This document shows positions 5,001 to 41,456 of a DNA stretch of 42,208 nucleotides, piece after piece (within the stretch, counting starts at the first letter, position 1; each line of letters begins with the position of its first letter). Position numbers and translations under genes: made by a program. Source of the DNA: Ectocarpus siliculosus (Eukaryota > Sar > Phaeophyceae > Ectocarpales > Ectocarpaceae); contig FN649748.1 in assembly GCA_000310025.1 (NCBI GenBank), forward strand, positions 195,058-237,265. Direction: 5' to 3'. The notes below the pieces were generated by a model that worked only from the letters and a program-made list of their open reading frames with translations, was not told the DNA's origin and did no database searches.

Positions 5001-6565
5001 ACGGGGTAGTGTTGCTTGCAACCGCGGCAGCAGCGCAGTAGCGCAGCAGCGGGGTGTTTTCGCCCACAGGTTCCGCCGCATTTTTGCGTAAACGCCTCCT
5101 GAACTTAGGGAAACCAATTTCGAGAACAGCAGTGACGCGGCTGGGGGAGACACGCGCGGGACGCGCCAGGGGAAAGGTCGATAGCTCGACACCCAAAGGA
5201 TAATCTTGCGTTCGCCAGTTCGATTCTGCTGATAAAAGGTGAGGAGAAGAGTTGTGGTACCTCGGAATCGCGAGAATTCTCTCACATCCCCTAAAACTTG
5301 GTGCTGAAAAAGTGGTCGTCGTGTAGAATTTGGCTCAGAACCGCTTGTACACAACGGCGGTCGCGGTGCAGCAGTCATGTATTGTTTGTGGAGGTGTGTC
5401 TGAATGCCTTCTCTTTGGCTCTCTCTCAATGGTCGTACGCACAGCTTCCCGCTTCCCTCTCACGCTACGCCAGCGCAGACGCGCAGACCACTGTAGTTTC
5501 TCTCTGTCTCTCTGTCTCTCTGTGGCGGTCGGGTTGCAGTCGTGATGCCAGTTCAGAACTCAGAACCCGAATCTCGAGATTCCTCAGGTTCCCTGACCCC
5601 TGACCCCCGACCCCACACAGCCTGACAGCCCCGACATATTTGCATCCGTTTGTCATTCATCCATGGGTGCATCAGCTGGTTCTCTGGTAAACGGACGTCG
5701 CTGACTTGCTGCTGGTTGTTTATCTCTGTGTGTCGGCAAGCTCGGGTTGTCTCGTTGTCTCTGTCTTCTGTAGCCTTCGAACTCTACGGCAGGGTAGAGA
5801 ACTGAAAGAGAACCAGAAGACACGGAGCAGTATAGCAGTATGAGGCCAGGAACTCCAGGAACTCTTCTGATTCCCAACAGCTGGGAATGGTTGATGAAGC
5901 TTTGGGAGGCTGGGAAAATGTGTCCACGAAGGCGCGCCCACTCTCCGCACCACTCTAGCTTGACTGAGTTCGCTCGGTCACGCTTCGCATTCCTGGCCAC
6001 AGCGCACCAAGGGAATAGCCAGCCTCCGGCAGGCCGTAGCCACCAAGCTCCCGACTCCCTACCAGAGTTGAGGACTCCGTACTCGCGTCGACGAAGCGTT
6101 TTATTTTGTTTGCGCCCTGCAACCCACGTACATAGCAAAATATATGGGAGGACAGAAACACAAACCCAGAGGAAAAAATGTCTTTTTGGGTTTGTTTTTC
6201 CGTCCTCCTCCAATGCTTTGTGTACAGGGTGCAGGGCACAATCAAAAGAAAACGCTTCTTCGACGCCAATATGGAGCCCTCAACTCTGGGTGAGCGCTGA
6301 ATCTCCATACCCTGACCTCCGCAAAGAGGACTAATTGGAGGCAGGATTGGAGGCCGGGCGGGTGTTCTGCTGGGCTTGATCGCTTGATCGCTGAGAACAG
6401 AGAAGAGCAAAACGCACCGTTGCTGCTGCTGCTGCTGCCGTTTGTTACCCTTCGTTTCGCAACATCCAAAGAAGGAGCTTCTCTTGTCGCCTTTGTCGCT
6501 TTTCGTACGGCAGGGCCTGCCAGTAAGAGTCGAGCAGGGAGAGAGTTACAGCAGCAGGATAAAAC
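5001..6565. promoter_or_regulatory. Shared upstream region of the divergent CLPTM1-like and SND3-like genes
   Basis: The two start codons (5000 minus, 6566 plus) are head to head with about 1.56 kb between them, so both promoters should lie here. No TATA box or other element can be assigned with confidence. A CT-rich patch lies near 5495-5525 and a 229-nt foldback at 6062-6290. No convincing gene is present. Confidence 0.45.
6062..6290. repeat. 229-nt near-palindromic foldback
   Basis: The left arm (6062 to about 6172) begins ccagagttgaggactccg. The right arm (about 6182-6290) ends with its imperfect reverse complement. Matching blocks continue inward, for example gaagcgtttt, gccctgca and ggaggac, to a loop of only a few bases near 6172-6182. 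Transcribed from either strand it would fold into one long imperfect hairpin. It could be a MITE-like foldback or a hairpin small-RNA precursor; the sequence alone cannot decide. It sits 276 nt upstream of the SND3-like start codon. Confidence 0.8.
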
Positions 6566-9500
6566 ATGGGGAATCAAGGCTCCTTCATGGAGAAGGTGTA
6601 CGTGTATTTGCCTGTGCTGATGTGCCACTCCAAGATGGACTACTCCGACAAGTCCACCTTGTGGAACATCCGAGCTGCCTACTTCGCTGAGCAGGCAAGC
6701 AATGCGGAAACTGGACGTGACGAGTGGTGCCGGGAATGTTGGGCGTGATTTCTCTTGCTTGGGCCAAGTGTCGGCCGCTGAATTTTAGAAGAGTCGAAAG
6801 AAGCAGCGGTTTGCGTCTGTAGGGTTGCAGGCGTGGTTCGGTTTTCAGGGCGAGAGCAGGAAAGAGACACATTCGACACAAGTTGATGATAGGGTTTCTA
6901 TGACGCGGCAGGTAACGGTTGCTCTGCTGCTGAAGGGTAACGGGTTGGCTGAACTTCATGTACGACCCCCCTCTTTCCACGCGTGCACCTGTTCGTCGGC
7001 CCAACGCCATGCCACCAACCAAGAGTATAGCACTACATTTACTGAATTTCGGCCCTCATTCGGATGGGGGGGGGCGGGTACAGCACCTTTGATGACAACG
7101 AGACCGGCATCGCTGTTTACTGTTTTCTCCTGTGGTTTGTTTACGGCTGTCGGTGGTGAGAAACTCGGTCAGAGAAAATGGTGGTGACGGCCAGATGAAG
7201 GCAAAAAAACGGGGAAGATATGCATAGGAGAATAGGGTTGTACAGACAGCAGGAGGGGCCCGGCAGTACGAGAACAGCCCCTTCGACTGTGGCTGTATCT
7301 CGAACGGGTAGTCTTTATGTGTTTGTATTTGTTTTTCCTAGCATTAAGAGCTTTGACATATTCATTTTTTAAACCCAACGGGGTATTCTGTTTTTCTAGA
7401 CCCGAAATGGACAGTTCTTACTCCACGGCGCTAACTGCTGTACACAAACCAGTGCCACGACATGTGGGCCCCGTATCCGACAGCGAAACCTTCGAGCACC
7501 GCGACCACATCTCTTCCCCACCGAAAGAAATAAATGCCATTCCACCACCACCACTTGCCCTCGTGTTTCTTCGGCCGCACGCCTCATCATCAGATCGGCC
7601 TCTTCGCGTTCACGGCGTACTTCGTGTTCGCCATCCGAAGAAGGCGCGACCATCGAAAAATACTCGTTCCAGATATAACGCAGGGGCAGGTCCTAGCCAA
7701 CAACGTCCCTGGTCCGGATGAATTGATGTACCGGAAGACGACCTACTTCCAGCACGAGATGACGGAGGTGGGCGAGTGGGCTGGCAGGAGCATGTCTTTT
7801 GTGTTTTGCCCACCGGTGGGCAGAGCGTTGTTTTGGCATGTTTGAGAAGAGCCAGCCGGCGTCATGGTTTGTCTAGGATTTTCATGCCTTTGAGAGGGTG
7901 GACGTCCTTTGAGAGGGTGGGCGTATAGCAAGAACCGGGTCGGGGATTCTGTTTAAGCACCCCAACAGGGGCTCGATCGCCAGCTGGTGCACTTACAAAA
8001 AGGACTGCTGCCGGTTCAGCGTTGTCCTCTTGGATGAACCCGCCATGCTCCTCTCGACCGTTCGCCGCCAAAGCCCGTGCCTCACCGTGACACATTCGTC
8101 TTTTTTTTGGCCAAATTCTTATGGAAGGTCTGCATTTTGGCTGGAAACCACAGAATCAGGCGGAAATTCCACGGTATCCAGAGAGCGGCTGCGATTTTTG
8201 AGATCAACCCTTATGGTCAGAACAGGGAAAACACTGGCTTTGAATCGACAGACCACCAACTGACGGTTGACAGACCACCAACTAACAGTTGGTTCCTTTC
8301 AAACACCACACATGACGCATGACTGCGACAGACATCAAAACAGCGCGGCTACTACGCCGCCGTAGGATCGGGAGCGATACACACACACACCTACTACGCC
8401 TGCTCTGTGTTGAGCAGTACACCACTCAACAAGCAAAAATAGGCAACGGCCGATTGTGTAATTGTAGATGAGAGCATTAATGTGCCCTTCTTTTTTTTTT
8501 ACCTTTGAGAAAGGGTGTGTCGTCTGCCTCTCTCCACCAAAGCTCTCCACATATTCCCAGCAGAGAGTTGACACACGCACACACGTCGAACATCTGATCT
8601 GTTCATCATCATCAACACGATACACATGGCGCACACGGGGGCACGGCGGTGCACGGGTGCGGTGCAAACGTGCAATCGGTGCCGCGCGCGAGCAACAACG
8701 CCTGCACGACGACCTCTAACCCAAATCGCAGGAAGAAATCCCCGCTGCGATTTGAGCCTTCTAATCGTAGCGGGCAGAGCGATTCCGGGGTATACACGAT
8801 TTCAAATCGCGTTTTTCCGGCAAATAACAGCACCATAGGAGTTAGTATGTTCTGCCGGCCTCACTACAAACCCAAATCTCAGCAACTGCAGACCTTCCAT
8901 AAGAATTGGTCTTACTAGCGGCCAAAGACGGGACTTCCATTGCACCAGCAGCAGTAGTCCCGACATTCACACACACACCCACCCGGTGTTTGCCATCGGG
9001 GTTGGGTTTTCGTCGCTTGGTAACGACGTTGTAAAAGAAGCCAATTCACTTCGTGAACTCGGCAACCAGGTTACCGTTTTTTTTGCCTTTTTTATATTGC
9101 TGTAATCATAATGGTGGTCGAGTAGATTATGTTGTGCGGGGTCGAGAACCCTCACTCCGCGCAAGGGGGATGATCGCACCACGTTGTGTTAAAAGGGTCA
9201 AGCATCCTCGAGGCAGTTACACAGTGCTTACAACTGTCTCTGGAAGTGAAAGCACCAGAAAGTAAATTAAGTCATACGCAGCTGTCACCCGTACGCAAGG
9301 AAGTAAGCACAAGATGCCGAACACCCATAGCAGGACGCAGCGCACCCTTCGTGCGACTCGCCGAATACCTCACGGCGCTTCGCGCTTGGTGATGTGAGAG
9401 CCTGGTCCGGTGAGGACCCGGCGTGCTCCGTCCCGGCTTTATAGGAATGCGAGGTCAATGGTCTAACGACTACGGCATGCACGACTATGAGTACCCCCCC

Positions 9501-11089
9501 CCCCTCCCCATATTAATATTAAAATGCCCCCAACAGGTGTTCCAGCAGCTCCAGCAGCAGTTCGTGGCCCTTATGCTCACGATCCTGGCGCACTTCGTGC
9601 TGGGCTTCCGGCCCATCCTCCTGCTGCAAATATTCTCCGCGCCCTACCACTTCTCGGAGAACCGCCTCCTGCGCAAGCTCGTCCTGGGCCTCAAGCCCGG
9701 CTACCGCGTCTGGGGGGAGAGGTTTGAAGGAGAGCTGGAAGGGGATAAGGTCAAGAAGGAGGAGGAGGCGGCTCCGACGGCGGTGGCGGACGGGGAGGGG
9801 GCGGGCGACATTCCGGCGTTGGATTCGTCCTCAGCCGTTGCTACTTCTGCTACTGTGAAGGTGAGCGTGTTGTGTTTTGTGTACGGGGGCATGGGAACGC
9901 CCTTGAGGAAGGGACGATGATAGAGACAAGTGCGCGCCACGCTAAGGTTTTGGAACTCGAAGGGAAAGCGACGGCTGACACGAAGAGATCCTTAGATGGT
10001 GGTCAGGCAACCAGGACGTATAGTGTAAGTTGAGGAGGTCATTGTTTGCAACACCAAACAAGTACCACGTCGATCGTCTTCAGCGTAAAATAGCACGAGG
10101 GTGCGCTGTCCAGAAGAAACGCGAAGCCAAACAAGCCGCCGCGCTCCTCATAACTATTTAGCCTACCCTACTCCCACATCTACCCAAACATAACCCACAG
10201 GCGGAGGCCGATCCAGCAGTAGCCATCGCCGCCGCGGTGGCCGGGGGGGACGACGGAAGTAATAGTCTGCCGATGCCGAGGGAGTTGGAGGACAAGCTGA
10301 TCGACGCTTGGGAGGCTGCTGGGGAGGGGGACTTTGGCGCCGTCATGGAGCAGTTGGGGCCGTTCACCGTCAACACGCGGACTCCCGCCTTGGGGTGGAG
10401 CCCTCTCATGGTGGCGTGCGGCTTGTCGCAGGTGTGCCCAGCTGCCGAGGTGCTTGCGAGCGCGTGGGGTGTGTGTGTGTGTGGTAATCGTGGCATGTGG
10501 TAGTAACGTAGTTGGTTACGCTGTTGTGTAGAATGATGGTGTATTTCTTGGTTTTCTGTGTCTTGGCGTTTGCTTGTGTGGGGACTCTCTCTCTCTCCCT
10601 CTCTCTCTTTCTCTGTTCTCCATCCGTGGGACCTGATTTCATCGGCTTTTTCGCACCATCGCCGCCGTCATGCATGCGTGCGTGCCAGTGCCCTCTTGTC
10701 AGCGTGTAGTCAGCCGCAAGTGCTGCATTATTTTGCCTACATACAAACCGAACGACCCGCAAAACCTTGACCCCCCTCTTCAGGTGGGAGAAGGAGACAT
10801 CAAGGCGATGGTCGAAGACCTCGACGCCCAGGTCGACCTCCAGGACCAGGACGGGTGGACGTGCCTCCACTGGGCCGCGCAGCAAGGCCGTGTCGATGCC
10901 GCCCGGGTGATCTTCGAGGCACTCGGGAGCATCGCCAGCGAGCCGACCGCCGCGGCGACCATGATCCAAGACCTCCTAGCGATGAGGGATGCGGAGGGGA
11001 AAACAGCGGCGGATGTGGCAAGGGGGGCGGGGCTGGCCAGTTCGGATTTGGAGGAATTTTTGGGGGTCTTGGAAGACGGGGCTCGGTAG
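6566..11089 (+). CDS. SND3/PHO88-like ER membrane protein with C-terminal ankyrin repeats
   Basis: Five exons join in frame: 6566-6694, 7594-7767, 9537-9860, 10201-10431 and 10784-11089 (387 aa, stop TAG). Intron 1 uses a GC donor (CAG|gcaagc). Residues 1-110 follow the PHO88/SND3 plan: a hydrophobic N-terminus, a short acidic loop (KMDYSDKSTLWNIRAAYF), a second helix (IGLFAFTAYFVFAI) ending in RRRR, and a 'YRKTTYFQHEMTE' segment. A long membrane segment from QQFVALML to LLLQIF and a 'L.L.LKPG' end complete it. In yeast, Snd3/Pho88 is an ER membrane component of SRP-independent protein targeting and also affects phosphate transport. An acidic low-complexity linker follows, then about three ankyrin units (for example LGWSPLMVACG and DGWTCLHWAAQQGRVDAA). 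Known SND3 proteins lack ankyrin repeats as far as I recall. The fusion is the main oddity; assignment to SND3 is by pattern, not search. Confidence 0.65.
8247..8292. repeat. 22-bp tandem repeat, two copies
   Basis: The unit gacagaccaccaactgacgg recurs at 8269 with few changes, in intron 2 of the SND3-like gene. Confidence 0.8.
9389..9490 (+). repeat. Dispersed ~100-bp repeat, copy A, near the end of SND3-like intron 2
   Basis: Shares about 100 bp (roughly 80-85% by eye) with 37584-37684 in CCT6 intron 2, in the same orientation relative to transcription. Shared blocks include ggcgtgctccgtcccg, gcgaggtcaatggtc and tacggcatgcacg. It ends 46 nt before the 3' splice site at 9536/9537 and is followed by a poly-C run. 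Confidence 0.85.
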
Positions 11090-12761
11090 GCGGGGGGGGG
11101 CGGGGTGTGTGTGTGTGTACCGGGGAGTCATGCTCTCCAGGAAGAGAATGACTTGATTTCGACATAGATCCCGCTGAAAGTTTTTTGCGCCCATCGCAAC
11201 GAGGTAGGCGGAGTCTGGTGTTATGTTTGGTTACCTGTGTGATGATCCGACTGTATGTAATTGGGCCTAGCTGAATATATGTGGAGAGCAGGTAGCCTTG
11301 TGTGTGCATGCACCTTGAATGAGTAAAAGTCGAGAAGAGAGAGGTATTGAGAGTTATCGACTGGCTGTGAGTTGATCCTGAAACAACGTCGTTGTTTTTG
11401 TTTGCGGTGCAGCACGTTGTTGAGTGCTGCAGGGGCAGGAGCGTAAAATGCTATTGTCGGAGGGAGATTTTAGTATTACGGTTTGACTATGGGGTGATGT
11501 ATGTCGTCGAGTCGTCCGTTTACGGTTTCTGTAGGGTAATAAAGTTTTGTCGTCCTGTCCAGAGAAGACGGGCGTTGCCGCATGTCGCTTGATCAGGGGG
11601 GATGCTTTCCATTTTCCATGAGAAGAGAACGCTCCACTTTGTTTTCCCTCCCTACGCAAAGCTCGGCGTTTTTGCCGCAGAGGGAAACAGAACTCGTGAA
11701 CCCTCATTTACGGCATGGATAGGGAAGGAAGGGGGGAGGGGGAGAGACAGCATGTCGAGTGGCCGTAGCTTCACCGGTATAGGTGAGGAAGAGAGCATTA
11801 AAAGTGACTGGAGTTGGTTGGGAATATATGGCATGAGCAAATACACGGGTCCGTTCTACAGATAAGCGTCGCGAGGTCACCTGTTCCGTGGGCCTTGCAG
11901 TGTTTCCCACTAGCACACGCGTGTCCATCTATTCTAGCACCCGAACTTGTTGGCACCCGCAGTCGGATTAATTTTTACGTCCGGTCAACATGGGTGTTTT
12001 TTTGTCTCCATGTCGTCCAGCCGAAAGCATCACCCCTCCCTGCTGGGAACGTTCCCATCTTTGCCCCGACAACAGCTCGTCTGCAGATCTTCTCCTCCAC
12101 CGGCTAATCAACACATATCTCCTCGGATCCTTCGACAATAATTCACCCTCGCTATCTCTGCCGTTGTTCAGATCATTTCACCGAAAACAAATCCGCAATG
12201 TCGTACGCACTCAACACTCAGTTACTCTACCTCTCCAGACAAACACGCCGTAGATATTGAATCTCTATTTTCTTGTATCATAGGCGGAACAAGTTTTTAC
12301 GAAGGAGTGCAAAGACACACGAGCCCCGTATTTTCCCTTTGTCGAGTTTGTGCGTGCGCTCTAGACGCCAGACGCCAGACTCCAAACGCCTTACAGCAGT
12401 AGCACCACGCAACCACACATAGCACAATGCGCGAATGCGTGTCACAGTCCAGTTTGCGGCACAATATCGACCGGTTCGGCGTCAGAAGCGGGGTGGCTGG
12501 TACCCGTTCGGCGGAATGTGGTGATGAGTACGTTAGACGTGGGTGTTTGTGGGTGATGGGTGTGCACCAGACAGAGGCCGACACACACAGAGAGAGCGGG
12601 AGAGAGAGAGAGATAGGAGGCCCGTGGCTAGACTATCACACATATTTGCCGTGTAGAAGGCTGGAGGGCTGTAGTGAAATGACACCGAAAGAGACAGTAT
12701 CGTACAAGTCAGCAGTTTGCTTCCTGGCTCAACAGCACGGAGGTCGTAGCAACTGGTCCTA
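11090..12761. other. Intergenic region between the SND3-like and FAM228-like genes
   Basis: Holds the 3' flank of the SND3-like gene and the 5' flank of the FAM228-like gene (both plus strand). GT- and GA-rich patches occur at about 11107-11118 and 12590-12612. I see no conserved coding segment, RNA gene or clear promoter motif. Confidence 0.5.
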
Positions 12762-20145: not shown

Positions 20146-21005
20146 CGTCGTCCAGCTCCCGGCCGACTGCTGCACCAGCTTGTGCACGAAGTCCTTGCAA
20201 GCCGGGTCGTTCAGCTCCGGCTGGAACCTCGCCGCGAGGTCCGCCGCCGCCGCCGCCCCACCCCCGGGACCCTGAAAGCACGGTAGGTTCTCGTTACCGC
20301 TGGCCATCATCTCCACCAGCAGCACGATTTCCTACGCGAACGAACGCGGGGTTTTGTGAAGACGCCGGACAAGGGGGGGGGGGGGCAGCTTTGCTGGACG
20401 CGTTCCGCGTGTCAACACATGGTAGGGGAAGGAAACGTGGGTACGACAGCATACAGGGGGCAAAAAAGTAAAGGTTCCTCCTGCCGCCATCAGCTAGGCA
20501 CACGACGCTCAACCACACAACTGTTGTATACACACATGAAAATATGAAGGGTGAACTGCGCTAAATAGTCTACTTGCTTGATTTTTTGTTTTTGATGGGC
20601 AAAAGATGGAATGCGTGGGCTCACACGCCTTCTTCTTGTATATAACCTCATTTGGATCACCACACTCATTTCGTTGCTGTCAAAAGAAATATGATGGGAG
20701 CAAGTGTCACCACGACTACGGGAAAAAAGAGCTCACCTGAGAACTTCGCCGAAGGGCGAGAAACGTGTCCACGCACAGCCCCCGGAACTCTCGGAAACAT
20801 CTAGACTGCGTGCCCCCCATCAGGTTCAGGAATCCCTGTGTCAGCTTGAAGGGGGCGGACTCGAACCCAAGGTTTCCCCCCGGGCTGTTGGCGAGCATGA
20901 AGCCGAAGTCGACGTGGATCACGCGTCCTTGGGAGTCCAGCAGAATGTTGCCGTTGTGCCTGTTGGGGGGTTCAGGGTCCAAACCAAAAACCGTGGCACA
21001 GGGAC

Positions 21006-21057
<52 letters not shown>

Positions 21058-23534
21058 GGGGTTGGCTCGCCATCGACGTCTCGACAGAGATAACTCTCAC
21101 TTCGTCCTGAACATCAAGTAGAAGCCTTTAGATTTGAGTAGCCAACGACAACGCCGGAGCCCCCCCCCCCCCCCCCCCCCAAGGGACCCACTTTTTAAGG
21201 ATATTCCTGAACACAAAAACCAAATTCATGGACAACCAACCCCCACCCCCTTTTCCCGGCAATCTGGAAACAAAACACCACTCCCGCAATGAACGTCAGG
21301 TCCTGACCTTTTCCTACAACACGTCAAGCTTAACCCCCCCGCAGCCCGTGCCCCGGCGTGGGGGGGTGGGTCGGGTTTGTTCTCGGGGGAACCATCCCCT
21401 TTAGTGGGGGCCGGCGGCGACCTCCAACTTGTTGGGGTTTTAAAAACCCCAACTCCAACCACTGGACGAATAATACGACAGTCAGCGGTTCAATAGCCCC
21501 TCTGGGCAAAAGGGTTGACCCCCGCCTCCACAAAAAATTACCGTGAAAGTTCGGGCCTCAGGGGGGGAATGTTGGGAACCGCGCGCACCCGACCCGCGAA
21601 AACACACGAAACCCCACCCGACCCACCTGTGCTTGATCTCCNNNNNNNNNNNNNNNNNNNNNNNNNNNNNNNNNNNNNNNNNNNNNNNNNNNNNNNNNNN
21701 NNNNNNNNNNNNNNNNNNNNNNNNNNNNNNNNNNNNNNNNNCCCCCCCCCCCCCCCCCCCCCAAGCGACCGACTTTTGAAGGATATGCATGAGCACAAGA
21801 GCTAGATTCATGGACAACCAACACGCACACACTTTTCCCGGCAATCTGGAGACAAAACAGCAGTCGCGCAGTGAACGTCGGTTCGTGACCTTTTCCTACA
21901 GCACGTCACGCTTACCCCCGCCGCTGCCCGTGCCCCGGCGTGTGCGGTTGTGTCGTGTTTGTTCTCGTGTGAACCGTCACCTTTAGTGGTGGTCGTCGTC
22001 GACGTCGACGTTGTTGTGGTTTTAAAAAGCCGACATCAAACCATTGGACTATTAATACAATAGTCAGTGGCTGACTACGCCATCTGGCCTAATGGTTTGA
22101 TTCCGGCTTCCAAAACAAGTTACCGTTAAGGTTTGGGCGTTGGTGTGACTTCGTGGTTACCGCACGCACCCGTCCGCTGAGCCCCAGCCCAACCCCACCC
22201 TACCCACCTGTCCTTGATCTGCAGGAGGTAGCACGCGATGGAGTAGGCGGCCAGGCTCTCGATGAAGCGCCGCTGAGCCTCGCGGAAACCGTCCGACCCC
22301 TTAGCCCCGAACCTCGCCTCAAAGAACCCGGTCAGACTGTGTGCACGAGAGGGCGGCAGGTAGACCAATGATGCAAATTACAACAAGGGCAGCCACGCCA
22401 AGAGGGGGAGACGTGAAGATTGGGGAGGGGCGGAGGCGGGGGGGGGGGCTCAGCCAGCGAAAAACCTTCATCCGGAACGATCGAGGGTGCTCGAGCAACC
22501 CGAGGAGGGACTGGGAAAAACACGCGTGCATATCCATGGTCACCTCTTGTCAACACCCGCCACAACAAAGAGAACAACAAATTACAAGAAGCGAAGTGTA
22601 CGCAGGTGTGCTGCACATGGCACCAAGGTAAACAATGTCACATGTTCGCTCACACAAGCACAAGACAAAACCAGCGCTCCTTTCTCCTCTCGCGCGCACA
22701 CGCACCTGAAGCGCGAGGCCGCCGCCGCAGAAGCGTCGCCTCCCTCCTCCGCCGCCGCCGCCGCCGCCGCCTTCGCCCCTTCCCGCCCGCTTCCCCGGTA
22801 CCTCCGCAGTGCGTCCAGCGATATCGTGTCCGGAACGGCCTCCACCAGCCCCGTGTCCGCGGACAGGGCCACGATGTCGTACGGACGCAGCCACACCCTG
22901 ACCCCTTCCGCCCGGAGGATGCGCTGCATGACGAACAGGAGCTGGGAGGCCAGCTGCTCCTGGCGCAGGTCGTCGTTGCTCTTGACGATGACCGGGAGGA
23001 GCCGCCACCCTGGCTCCTCGGCCCACGGCGAGACCCTCCGTATCCGGTTGCTCTTGTCGTGCCACAGCTCGTTGAACAGCACCTGGGGCTGAGGGAGCCC
23101 ATCTCCGCTCGATGACGCGGCCCCTCTCCCACCATCGCCCGATTCCCCCTCCTCCTCGCTCCCGCGCCGCGAGGCACCGCCCGTAGAGTCCGCTCCGCCG
23201 CTGCTGCTGCCGCCGCCACCGCCTCTCGTGTACCCCTCCGGCAGCGGCTTGCTCGTCGGCAGGCGCCGCTCCAGTACGTCCGCTAATGTGTCGTCGCCGA
23301 CGTCGTCGTCGTCGCCCCCCCAGGGCCGCCCCGTGCCCGTGCTGCTCGCCGTCCACCAGTCCCTGGCGTTGCCCATGGAAGACAAGGGCAGGACGCCGGG
23401 GCCGGAGGTAGTGTCCCCGGTCTCCTCGTCCACCAGCAGCCGGTAGTGGTCAGCGGTCGCGTCGTCCGGGCGGCCCCTGCCAAAGCCGCCGCCACGGCGA
23501 CGCCTGTACTTCTCTCTGGGAAGTCTCTCGTCGT

Positions 23535-23572
<38 letters not shown>

Positions 23573-26129
23573 ACTCCGAGGTTGTTGGTTGTGCCCCCCC
23601 CGCCCTGTTCGATGTCCTCGGACCGAACGCGAATCGCACCGCTTGCCCTAGCCCCTCCTCCTTCCTCCTCCTCCTCCTCCTCCTCCTCCTCCTCCTCCTG
23701 CCCCGTTACGCTCTGCGGCTCGACGTCGTCGCTCTCTTCGGTACCCAGGGACAGCGTCCACCCTTTAAATCCTCCCGGTAATCCTTCTCCCCTTGACGAC
23801 CCAGGGAATCGCAACTGCTGAAACGATACGCCGCTGGGTAGCCACTGGCGCAGGGCCTGAATCCTTCTCGAGAGCATGTTACCGCCACCGCCGCCGCCTC
23901 GTTCACCCTCCTCGTCTTCTCCCTCCCCCCCCGCTTCCGCGAGGCCACCTTGGTCTCCCTCCCGCCTCCGCCGCCGTTGCCGCCTTCTTCCAAGCCCCGG
24001 CTCCTTCGCCCCGACAACTTCCAGGCAAACAAAGCACGGCGCTCGCTCCCTCGTCGAAAAAGCGAAAGACTCGGAAGGGTGGACGGCAACGATGCGGTGG
24101 TGACGGTCCCCGACGGGCACGTACACGAGGCGCTCGCCGCCGTTCCCCTCGTCCCCGCTCCTCCCTTTACCCGCCGCCGCTCCGGCCCCCAGAAACGTCT
24201 CGCCGACCTCCGCCAGTTGTTCCTTCAGGACGTGGGTCCGCTCGGCCTTCGACAGCGGGGTCAGGGAGGACGCGATTTCGCCCAGCCTTGCCAGGAAGTC
24301 GATCGTCTGTCGGTAGAGCAACGGGGCTTGCTTCTCGCTCTTGCCGTCGCCGCCGCCGCCATCGCCGCCCCGGACACCACCCTTGGTTCTCGCCTGTGCG
24401 CCGGCGGCGGGGGCAGCCACGTCCTTGCTCCCCGCCACCGCCGCCGTCATCGCCGGAGGCGCACGAGCCAGTCGCCCGGAAGACTCACCCCCGCTATCGT
24501 CGCCGCCGCCGCCCTTGTCAAGACTGGCCGGCCGCACGGCGGCGGCGGCGGCCTCAGCGGCCTCCTCAACAAGCCTTCTTGCGGCACGCTCCCCGTTCTC
24601 CGCGATCTCCTTCAGCAGGAGCTCCACCGCTCTCCTCCCAACCCTATCGATGCCGCCGCCAACGCCACCGTCATCGTCTTCTGCCACCGCACCTCCGCCC
24701 TCCGCGGCACTAGCCGCCAGAGAACCACCACCGCCGCTGCCGCCGCTATTTCTGCTGTCTCGGCGCGAAGTAGCCAAGGCGGGCGGATTCTTCCCGCTAG
24801 GAGACAAGAAGTCACCGCCGCCGCCGCCGTCAGACGCGGGGGCTCCGTCTATCGCGGTTGCGGCAGTGGGAGCGGCGGCGGGCAGGCAAGACGCCCTGAG
24901 CTGGAACTCGAGGGCGTGCGCGAAGTAGACGTTCTCCGAGCACCGCGCGAGCAGCCATGCCTCCATCTGCCCGCTCATGTAGTACGAGCCCCACACCAGA
25001 AACGATGCAAGCTGTTTCGCCGTTTTTTTTCGTCGCCGGTTGTTAACCATGTAGCAGCACATTAATGAAGGCATGAACGTGGTCACGTGGGTCACGGCGG
25101 GGGAAGAGTTGCGACGGAGAGAGGGAGGAAGCAAAGAAGGCTGGAATGAAAAGCAAGCAGGCCTGCAACCGGAGTCTCTTCCACACAACCAACCTGTGAC
25201 ACAGAGGGCGAGTCCACGGGATGACAAAAAAGAGACTAAAACCACACACCCGTTCTCCTCACCCTATGCCGTTTGTTCCGTAACGGTAAACTAGATTTGC
25301 CAGCGAGACCTCCGCCACCTCGCGGCGACAGGCAAACAAACCCAGGTAATAATTATCCGGCTGAAAGCTGATACGGCAAGGCTAAATCTGGGCGAGTCAA
25401 TCATACACAGAGGCGATCTTGTGACAAAATTAAGCACCAGCGGCAGCTGCTGCACGCCCTTCAGCAACCAAGCAAGAACAACAAACACGCCCTAACCACA
25501 AACAAAACAGCAGCCAACAACTCCTCCCCCTCCCACCTGCGGCGCGAACGCCTCCAGGCACATCGGGTCCTGCTCCGCCGCCAGCCTCAGGTCCTCCAGG
25601 GTGTCTTCGTAGGCGTACAGGCGGACGATCAGCCCGAACGTGAGCCGAAGCGCCGCGTCCCGGTCCGCCGCCGGGCTGCCGCCGCCGCGCACGCCCCAGC
25701 CGTCCCCGCTCAGGAACGACGCCTGCCACCTCTTCTGGAGCGCGCTCACTCTCGCCGACCAGGCGGCCCTCGCTTCCTGGGGGGCGCCGTACGTAGCGAC
25801 GGCAGGTATGTACCAAGATAGGTGGGCAGTTTGTTGTACTTGGGCAGATGGTTGTATTCGAAAAAAAAAAGAAAAATGGGTGAGAATTTAGGGCGTGTGT
25901 GGTATAGCGAGGGCAGGGTACAAAGATAGGGGTGGGCAGATTGAAAAACGGGTGACGAGAGAAGGGTATGTTGGCCTGAGCAAGAGGAAGCGGGAGCATG
26001 CTACACGCCTTGTGAATACTTTCTGATCCGATCAAGCGCTGAGGGGAAGAAGATGGATACACCACCGTGTGCGCGACCGAAATGTGTCTGTCTACGAGAG
26101 GCTCACGATACCGGAAACACGATCTGAAC

Positions 26130-40142: not shown

Positions 40143-41456
40143 TTGTTGTTATGTATCCAAGTCCACGATAAAATCGATTTGGTTGATTGATGGAGCTGGC
40201 ATCTCCTGACGCGCTGCTTGTCCCGCCGTCCGCCCGCGTTCCTGTTGCCGGCTTCTTCGTGTTTGGGGGGGCGGTGTGTGTGTGTGTGTGTGTGCAGCTG
40301 CCACATCCTCACGTGCAACGTGTCTTTCGAGTACGAGAAGACGGAGGTGCAGTCGGGCTTCTTCTACTCCACGGCGCAGGAGAGGGAGAAGCTCGTGGAG
40401 AGCGAGCGCAAGTTCACCGACGAGAAGGTGCTTAATTTTTTTTTTGTGCCCTTTTTTTTGTTTTTCCTCGCTGGATGCAGATGCTGAGCTGTGCTGTGCT
40501 CGTACTCTGCTCCCGTTGCTTCGAAGAGAAACTTCCATTTTTTTCTAATTTGCCGGCGTTTTTTTGCTGTTGTTCTCGCTGGATGCAGATGCTGTTCTGA
40601 TCTGTGCTGTGCCAGATAGTACTCCCTACGCTTGTGCTTCGAAGAGAAAATTCCGCGGCTGACGTTTCTGTACACAGGTTCGTTGTCTTGTCGTGCTTGC
40701 CCAACAGGAACGCTTTGCTTATCAGCGCTTTTCTTTTCTTTTTCTTTTGTCTGATGCATGTGATGTAGTAAATCGCCCTCAAAATGCGCGGCATCTGCTG
40801 CTGTTTTTTTTATGCCGCTACCGCTGCACTGTACCAACAGGTGATGCAGGTGATCGAGTTCAAGAGGAAGGTGTGTAAGGAGGGCGAGTCGTTCGTCATC
40901 ATTAACCAGAAGGGCATCGACCCCCTGTCTCTCGACATGTTCGCCAAGGAAGGCATCTTCGCTCTCCGGAGGGCAAAGGTGCAGCTTTTATTGTTGTTTT
41001 TCACGCGGCAGTGATGATGGGTGGGTATTCTTGGTGGTGGTTGTCGGGTCGATGCCGATGATGGTGTTAGTTGGTTGGCTTGTTGGTGTGTCACCAACAC
41101 ATGTTTTTGGGTTTAGTTTTCTTTAAGAAACAGAACAAATAATATTTCAACTTTTTCACAGATAAATACGTAGTAAATAAGAGTCCGGGACAGACTAGCC
41201 GACAGATTTATTTTTTGCTCGGAAACTGAAGACGTCTGGTTCCACACGTCAGTGGGGTTCGACGCTGCTTGGGTGATTTGCACTTTGCGTCACCCCCCTT
41301 GACCCCGCCCCACTCCCTCGTTGTTTTGTCCCCGAAACGGCGGGGCACACCTGGTAACAGAGGCGTAACATGGAGCGGCTGACGCTGGCGTGCGGAGGCA
41401 TGGCTGTAAATAGCACGGAAGACATCTCGGAGGAGATGCTGGGCTGGGCGGGACAG
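35289..41456 (+). CDS. CCT6: T-complex protein 1 subunit zeta, N-terminal two-thirds (truncated by window end)
   Basis: Nine exons join in frame: 35289-35406, 37126-37262, 37713-37882, 38374-38461, 39155-39223, 39778-39887, 40298-40427, 40841-40978 and 41361-41456 (352 codons). ATG at 35289 begins [20 protein letters not shown]. Group II chaperonin signatures follow: [11 protein letters not shown] rebuilt across intron 1, [11 protein letters not shown], and the ATPase motif [10 protein letters not shown] (about 86-95). CCT6-type segments come next: [46 protein letters not shown] and [13 protein letters not shown]. The protein is one of eight subunits of the cytosolic TRiC/CCT folding ring (actin, tubulin and other clients). 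Introns 3 (CAG|gcaaga) and 5 (ATG|gcgagt) use GC donors. The remaining ~180 codons are beyond the right edge; intron 9 starts at 41457 (gtgaga). Confidence 0.95.
35407..37125 (+). other. CCT6 intron 1 (1.7 kb)
   Basis: Bounded by gtgagt and ttcag. No internal gene recognised; short frames inside lack conserved features. A poly-C run lies near 36989-36998. Confidence 0.7.
37509..37684 (+). repeat. Tandem pair of the dispersed ~100-bp repeat (copies C and B) near the end of CCT6 intron 2
   Basis: Copy B (37584-37684) matches 9389-9490 in the SND3-like gene. A more diverged partial copy C (37509-37580) precedes it with a period of 109 bp (shared gtgctccgtc and ggtcaatggtc). Copy B ends 28 nt before the 3' splice site at 37712/37713. 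Confidence 0.8.
39240..39515 (+). repeat. GTT-rich 110-bp tandem duplication in CCT6 intron 5
   Basis: The unit containing gacgcaatattcaaggggc at 39311 recurs at 39421 (gacgcaatatacaaggggc), with the following ttcattgct and gtggttgccgt conserved. It is embedded in (GTT)n-like sequence. Confidence 0.85.
40008..40205 (+). repeat. Tandem duplication with (CTG)13 in CCT6 intron 6
   Basis: Two units share ccac/tcacgataaaa, cgatttggttg and atttcctg/atctcctg, with an offset of 118-132 bp. They are separated by a pure CTG run at about 40100-40139. A (GT)n tract follows at 40275-40294, just before the exon 7 acceptor. Confidence 0.8.
40437..40660 (+). repeat. ~111-bp tandem duplication in CCT6 intron 7
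   Basis: ctcgctggatgcagatgctg occurs at about 40468 and 40579, followed in both by ctgtgctgtgc and gcttcgaagagaaa. Confidence 0.85.

Follow-up and report, generated by a model that had tools for sequence, protein, structure and literature searches.

The locus lies on the plus strand of a 42,208-nt stretch of Ectocarpus siliculosus DNA, which is referred to here as the window. Five exons join into a 387-residue reading frame that begins with an ATG at 6566, ends with a stop codon at 11089, and has no internal stop. The predicted protein would consist of an N-terminal half of the SND3/Pho88 type, an acidic linker, and a tail of ankyrin repeats. The features of the gene are as follows.

6566..6694, plus strand: exon 1, residues 1–43, with the start codon in the context AAAACATGG; TMD1 region and start of TMD2, with a GC donor next
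7594..7767, plus strand: exon 2, residues 44–101; remainder of TMD2, a basic run (RRRRDHRK), and the N-claw region
9537..9860, plus strand: exon 3, residues 102–209; TMD3, TMD4, the C-claw region, and the start of the acidic linker
9861..10200, plus strand: intron 3 (gtgagc...ccacag), 340 nt, phase 0; the fusion hinges on its junction
10201..10431, plus strand: exon 4, residues 210–286; end of the linker, a degenerate first ankyrin unit, and the start of the second
10784..11089, plus strand: exon 5, residues 287–387; remainder of the second ankyrin unit, the canonical unit GWTCLHWAAQQGRVDAARVIFE, an insertion, the last unit, and the stop codon
11538..11543, plus strand: AATAAA, a candidate polyadenylation signal 449 nt past the stop

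The five exons and their coordinates had been proposed in an earlier note on this DNA and were reproduced here, with the open frame of 387 aa and the phase-0 introns. The four introns are 899, 1769, 340, and 352 nt long, which fits the mean intron of 740 bp given for Ectocarpus, a genome with 54% G+C (PMC6418280); the G+C content of the window is mostly 50%–60% per kb. The start ATG has A at -3 and G at +4. Donors follow G[TC]NNGC and acceptors end in CAG in all four introns. Introns 2–4 are GT-AG, and intron 1 (6695–7593) is GC-AG, with the donor GAGCAG/gcaagc inside a conserved coding region. The choice of this donor is supported by the protein alignment to fungal SND3, which is ungapped across intron 1 (RAAYFAEQ before and IGLF after the splice site, aligned with RAAYLASNLIIL; RAAYFAEQ aligns with RAAYLASN of the Chaetomium thermophilum protein, ctSND3, up to the splice site).

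Two repeat structures accompany the gene. A palindromic, MITE-like element at 6062–6289 has 76-nt arms of 80% complementarity, encloses a hairpin at 6147–6208, and ends 276 nt before the ATG. Inside intron 2, 24-nt inverted repeats with 96% complementarity bound ~794 nt (8114–8907), a possible terminal-repeat element that would explain part of the length of this intron. Farther along the window, exons of a phosphatidylinositol 3-/4-kinase lie on the minus strand at 20719–21096 and 22585–25263 (61.5 and 35.0 bits, cut-off 27.1), and a possible TCP-1/cpn60 chaperonin exon lies on the plus strand at 40191–40484 (27.9 bits, under the cut-off of 34.3). The family scan of the window covered 20 of the 204 stop-to-stop frames of at least 90 aa, and Rfam gave no RNA family in the window.

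The N-terminal part had been described in the earlier note as PHO88-like, and a profile search upholds this identity. The 387-aa model matches Pfam Pho88 (PF10032) with 47.7 bits against a cut-off of 25 (E = 1.5e-12), from residue 9 to 151 and from profile position 6 to 141 of 184; the last 43 positions of the profile are without a match. Residues 1–170 by themselves score 50.6 bits against the same cut-off. Exon 3 alone stays under the Pho88 cut-off (12.6 bits) and exon 4 alone has no family match in Pfam, and thus it is the spliced reading that carries the signal. At the level of sequence profiles, the Pho88 score and the ankyrin scores given below are far beyond chance. A phmmer search of the PDB with residues 1–170, at E values up to 10, did not reach ctSND3 and returned an esterase (E = 1.6) as its only match, and the SND3 assignment is thus based on the Pfam profile. 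The yeast protein Pho88 matches chain 9i78_6 (E = 2.1e-53) of PDB 9I78, the entry for the C. thermophilum SND3 translocon (PMC12572126). An alignment of three sequences, namely the algal protein, yeast Pho88, and a ctSND3 stretch of 189 of 224 residues, gave the algal protein 19% identity to ctSND3 and 16% to yeast Pho88, with R36, Y39, D70, T72, T92, T93, H120, and Q132 among the invariant positions. Phosphate transport, a historical family name, was set aside as a function.

ctSND3 has been reported as an insertase that has four TMDs and an atypical fold and sits beside CCDC47, SEC61, and TRAP at the ribosome (PMC12572126). Features expected of an SND3/Pho88 protein are four TMDs, with TMD1 and TMD4 short, a hydrophilic groove from TMD2, TMD3, and TMD4, and an acidic N-claw and C-tail that form a hydrophilic arch; in ctSND3, TMD1 is short, the N-claw and C-tail are acidic, and the polar groove residues are S41, N42, S100, Q101, Q124, and S135 (PMC12572126). 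Besides the Pho88 match, the algal protein and its fungal counterparts (ctSND3 of PDB 9I78 and yeast Pho88) have the order of hydrophobic and claw regions in common. The named groove positions are also polar in the algal protein, where the six counterparts are E42, Q43, Q108, Q109, Q132, and N143 (six of six) in an alignment at 16%–19% identity. Polar residues make up 17 of 60 in the assumed TMD2–4 segments, and the naive P value for six of six is 2.5e-4. Q132 pairs with Q124 where the conserved proline of TMD4 sits one residue off, and a shifted register would lose it. Because of this one-residue doubt, and because yeast Pho88 is polar at just four of the six positions, support from the groove is modest.

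Hydropathy windows above 0.9 occur at residues 41–57, 109–125, and 122–138, with none at TMD1, and the peak of the whole protein falls in exon 3 (109–125/113–131). Three windows in the tail (208–224, 272–288, and 328–344) pass 0.9 as well, which means that the threshold is not specific. The N-terminal part had earlier been called a three-helix protein, probably an undercount given the four membrane segments of the solved fungal SND3. The count of three probably arose because TMD1 gives no peak in the hydropathy profile, in which TMD2 and TMD3 are seen together with an overlapping TMD4; we infer the fourth membrane segment from the fungal structure. The pI is 9.8 for residues 1–165 and 3.8 for the remainder, and the net charge is -10 for the linker and -18 for the ankyrin part. 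In contrast to the acidic fungal N-claw, the algal N-claw region (residues 59–104, with borders chosen by us) has a net charge of +1. Where the fungal protein stops after a short acidic C-tail, the algal protein continues for ~220 more residues, which comprise the acidic linker and the ankyrin repeats.

The tail matches several ankyrin profiles, the strongest being Ank_2 (PF12796; 35.6 bits, E = 1.4e-8, residues 248–331, cut-off 27.3). Ank (PF00023) scores 26.0 bits against 21.1, Ank_3 25.6 against 22.3, and Ank_4 24.2 against 22.7, and Ank_5 (23.1) is below its cut-off of 27. Exon 5 alone exceeds two of the ankyrin cut-offs (Ank_4 and Ank) and falls under three. By eye there are about four units, with clear ones starting at residues 274 and 309, degenerate ones at 237–271 and 358–387, and an insertion before the last. 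The ankyrin assignment of the tail holds, and the earlier count of about three units is better read as about four, the first and last of them degenerate. A phmmer search of the PDB returned 305 sequences, of which the best 60 are ankyrin proteins of many kinds, without a specific family. Folding exon 5 alone, without an alignment, gave a mostly helical model that was not usable (mean pLDDT 53.4, pTM 0.35).

Whether the two halves belong to one gene depends on intron 3. The Pho88 match spans introns 1 and 2 and the ankyrin match spans intron 4, leaving 9860/10201 as the sole junction without profile support. Intron 3 has splice sites like those of the other three introns, and reading continues across it in phase 0 without a stop. 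Judged from the sequence, exons 1–3 and exons 4–5 quite probably form a single-gene fusion. We think it unlikely that there are instead two adjacent genes, a plain SND3 that ends by read-through of exon 3 at a stop at 9918–9920 and an ankyrin protein of ~154 aa that starts at an ATG at 10273 and is encoded by exons 4–5. Exon 3 does extend open to that stop, and the ATG at 10273 is in frame and directly before the first ankyrin unit, but its context is poor (C at -3 and C at +4) when compared with the ATG at 6566. Intron 3 has no ATG in the frame of exon 4. A 3' UTR, a promoter, and a 5' UTR would also have to fit within ~350 nt. TGTAA, a polyadenylation signal in green algae, occurs at 10024 within intron 3 and favors two genes. 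Against them, AATAAA and ATTAAA are absent from this intron, and the only plus-strand AATAAA in 9700–12300 is the one at 11538, past exon 5.

The linker has a weak coding signal, a point in favor of two genes: the end of exon 3 scores -0.5 in its true frame, and the score of the first 24 codons of exon 4 is reached by 59 of 1304 intron windows. Intron windows doubled as the background of this test, and the simple coding score does not separate linker from intron. The tail of exon 5 (10922–11086), which was outside the training set, scores higher in frame than all 481 stop-free intron windows. A count of 0 of 510 windows for 10273–10431 was discarded as partly circular, since 10315–10431 had been used for training. 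In those 24 codons of exon 4, only the spliced frame is open; the other two plus-strand frames have stops, which argues against a second gene. No such tail is present in the two aligned fungal sequences (yeast Pho88 and 189 of 224 residues of ctSND3), a point on the side of two genes. A scan of the junction for bacterial-type promoters and terminators found nothing, and since its model is bacterial this means little for an alga.

Searches of the genome covered 189,456,909 bases in 492 contigs and ignored introns, and distant copies would be missed. The whole protein gave 27 matches at E values up to 10, and the five exons are all at this locus. The other 22 matches are weak (best E = 8.3e-4); 19 touch the ankyrin part and three are in the linker or the C-claw region. 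No second Pho88-like locus was found in this intron-blind search of the 189-Mb genome. One locus of the EMC3/TMCO1 family was found, and the two of its three pieces that were compared with the PDB matched EMC3 only. For the Asterix family, two exons on one contig exceed the cut-off, which a third match, at another place, does not reach. Intron-blind searches of this kind found no TMCO1 locus, a weak negative, and no SND2, for which 14 controls were silent too, making the result uninformative. Both absences mean little because introns are disregarded in such searches and even the present gene was missed by the Pho88 profile. A homology survey places SND3 instead of TMCO1 in stramenopiles (PMC12572126), and the pattern of EMC3, Asterix, and SND3 seen here fits that statement. 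No relatives were found for exon 3 and exon 5 among viral contigs or for the whole model among genome contigs; these collections hold viruses and prokaryotes, and the searches therefore say little.

Ankyrin repeats are generic binding modules, usually for linear motifs or protein surfaces. Docking of a targeting factor, a client, or a translocon partner by the algal tail would follow from this general property. Alb3, the chloroplast insertase, belongs to the Oxa1 family. Chloroplasts likewise pair an insertase with an ankyrin protein, in that cpSRP43 binds a motif of the LHCP client through its ankyrin repeats and docks at the C-tail of Alb3 (PMC4660199). Unlike the arrangement in the algal fusion, cpSRP43 is a separate protein and docks via its chromodomain (PMC4660199); the likeness is one of analogy, and no homology is claimed. 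Plant AKR2A also uses ankyrin repeats in membrane-protein targeting, as a cytosolic chaperone with chloroplast and peroxisome clients, and is likened to the algal protein by analogy only (PMC8644595). The ankyrin module of the algal protein probably docks a partner. In the fungal structure, the C-tail is a cytosolic element lying over the N-claw, close to both CCDC47 and the ribosome (PMC12572126). The algal tail is placed where fungal SND3 has this C-tail, and it should for that reason be cytosolic and near emerging chains.

The reading we consider reasonably likely is that of an ER membrane insertase of the SND3 type that has a cytosolic ankyrin tail, for which we infer an ER location, the topology, the insertase activity, and a single transcript. 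Residues 1–165 would cross the ER membrane four times; in concert with CCDC47, Asterix, and SEC61 at the ribosome, they would thin it. Short luminal loops of multipass proteins would cross via the polar groove between TMD2, TMD3, and TMD4. The ankyrin domain would be exposed to the cytosol close to the ribosome exit and hold a partner there; the likeliest such partner is a linear motif in a targeting or chaperone factor, in a client, or in the translocon. The earlier note had proposed an ER receptor for SRP-independent targeting. Its PHO88/SND3 identity stands, and the receptor role is dated, as ctSND3 is now reported as an insertase in a ribosome-bound complex with SEC61, CCDC47, and TRAP (PMC12572126).

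A more specific version, which we offer as speculative and put on the improbable side, is an SND3 translocon to which, in this algal lineage, a docking arm is fused. This arm, the ankyrin tail, would capture a client motif or targeting factor by the ribosome exit and hand it to the groove, so that one chain would merge what is split between cpSRP43 and Alb3. Still more doubtful is a true fusion in which the ankyrin module does not serve insertion and, for example, ties a partner in signalling or lipid handling to the ER, with membrane anchoring as the role of the SND3 part. The generic nature of ankyrin repeats would suit such a role, as would the best 60 of the 305 PDB matches, which point to no specific family, and the Pfam title of the N-terminal family, which is still "Phosphate transport". 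A mere anchor would not need polar groove positions, yet the aligned positions are polar here, and the intron-blind genome search, which misses distant copies, found no second Pho88-like locus to fill the core role.

The insertase with an ankyrin tail would have a layout that is not known to have been described, and literature searches on SND3/PHO88 with ankyrin, of partial coverage, gave no report of this fusion. The word ankyrin is absent from the main text of the study of the fungal translocon (PMC12572126), and the layout may be catalogued in protein databases without discussion. If the fusion is real, the C-tail of SND3 is able to carry a large added domain, and the ankyrin module would offer a way to identify the factors that bring clients to the SND3 insertase.
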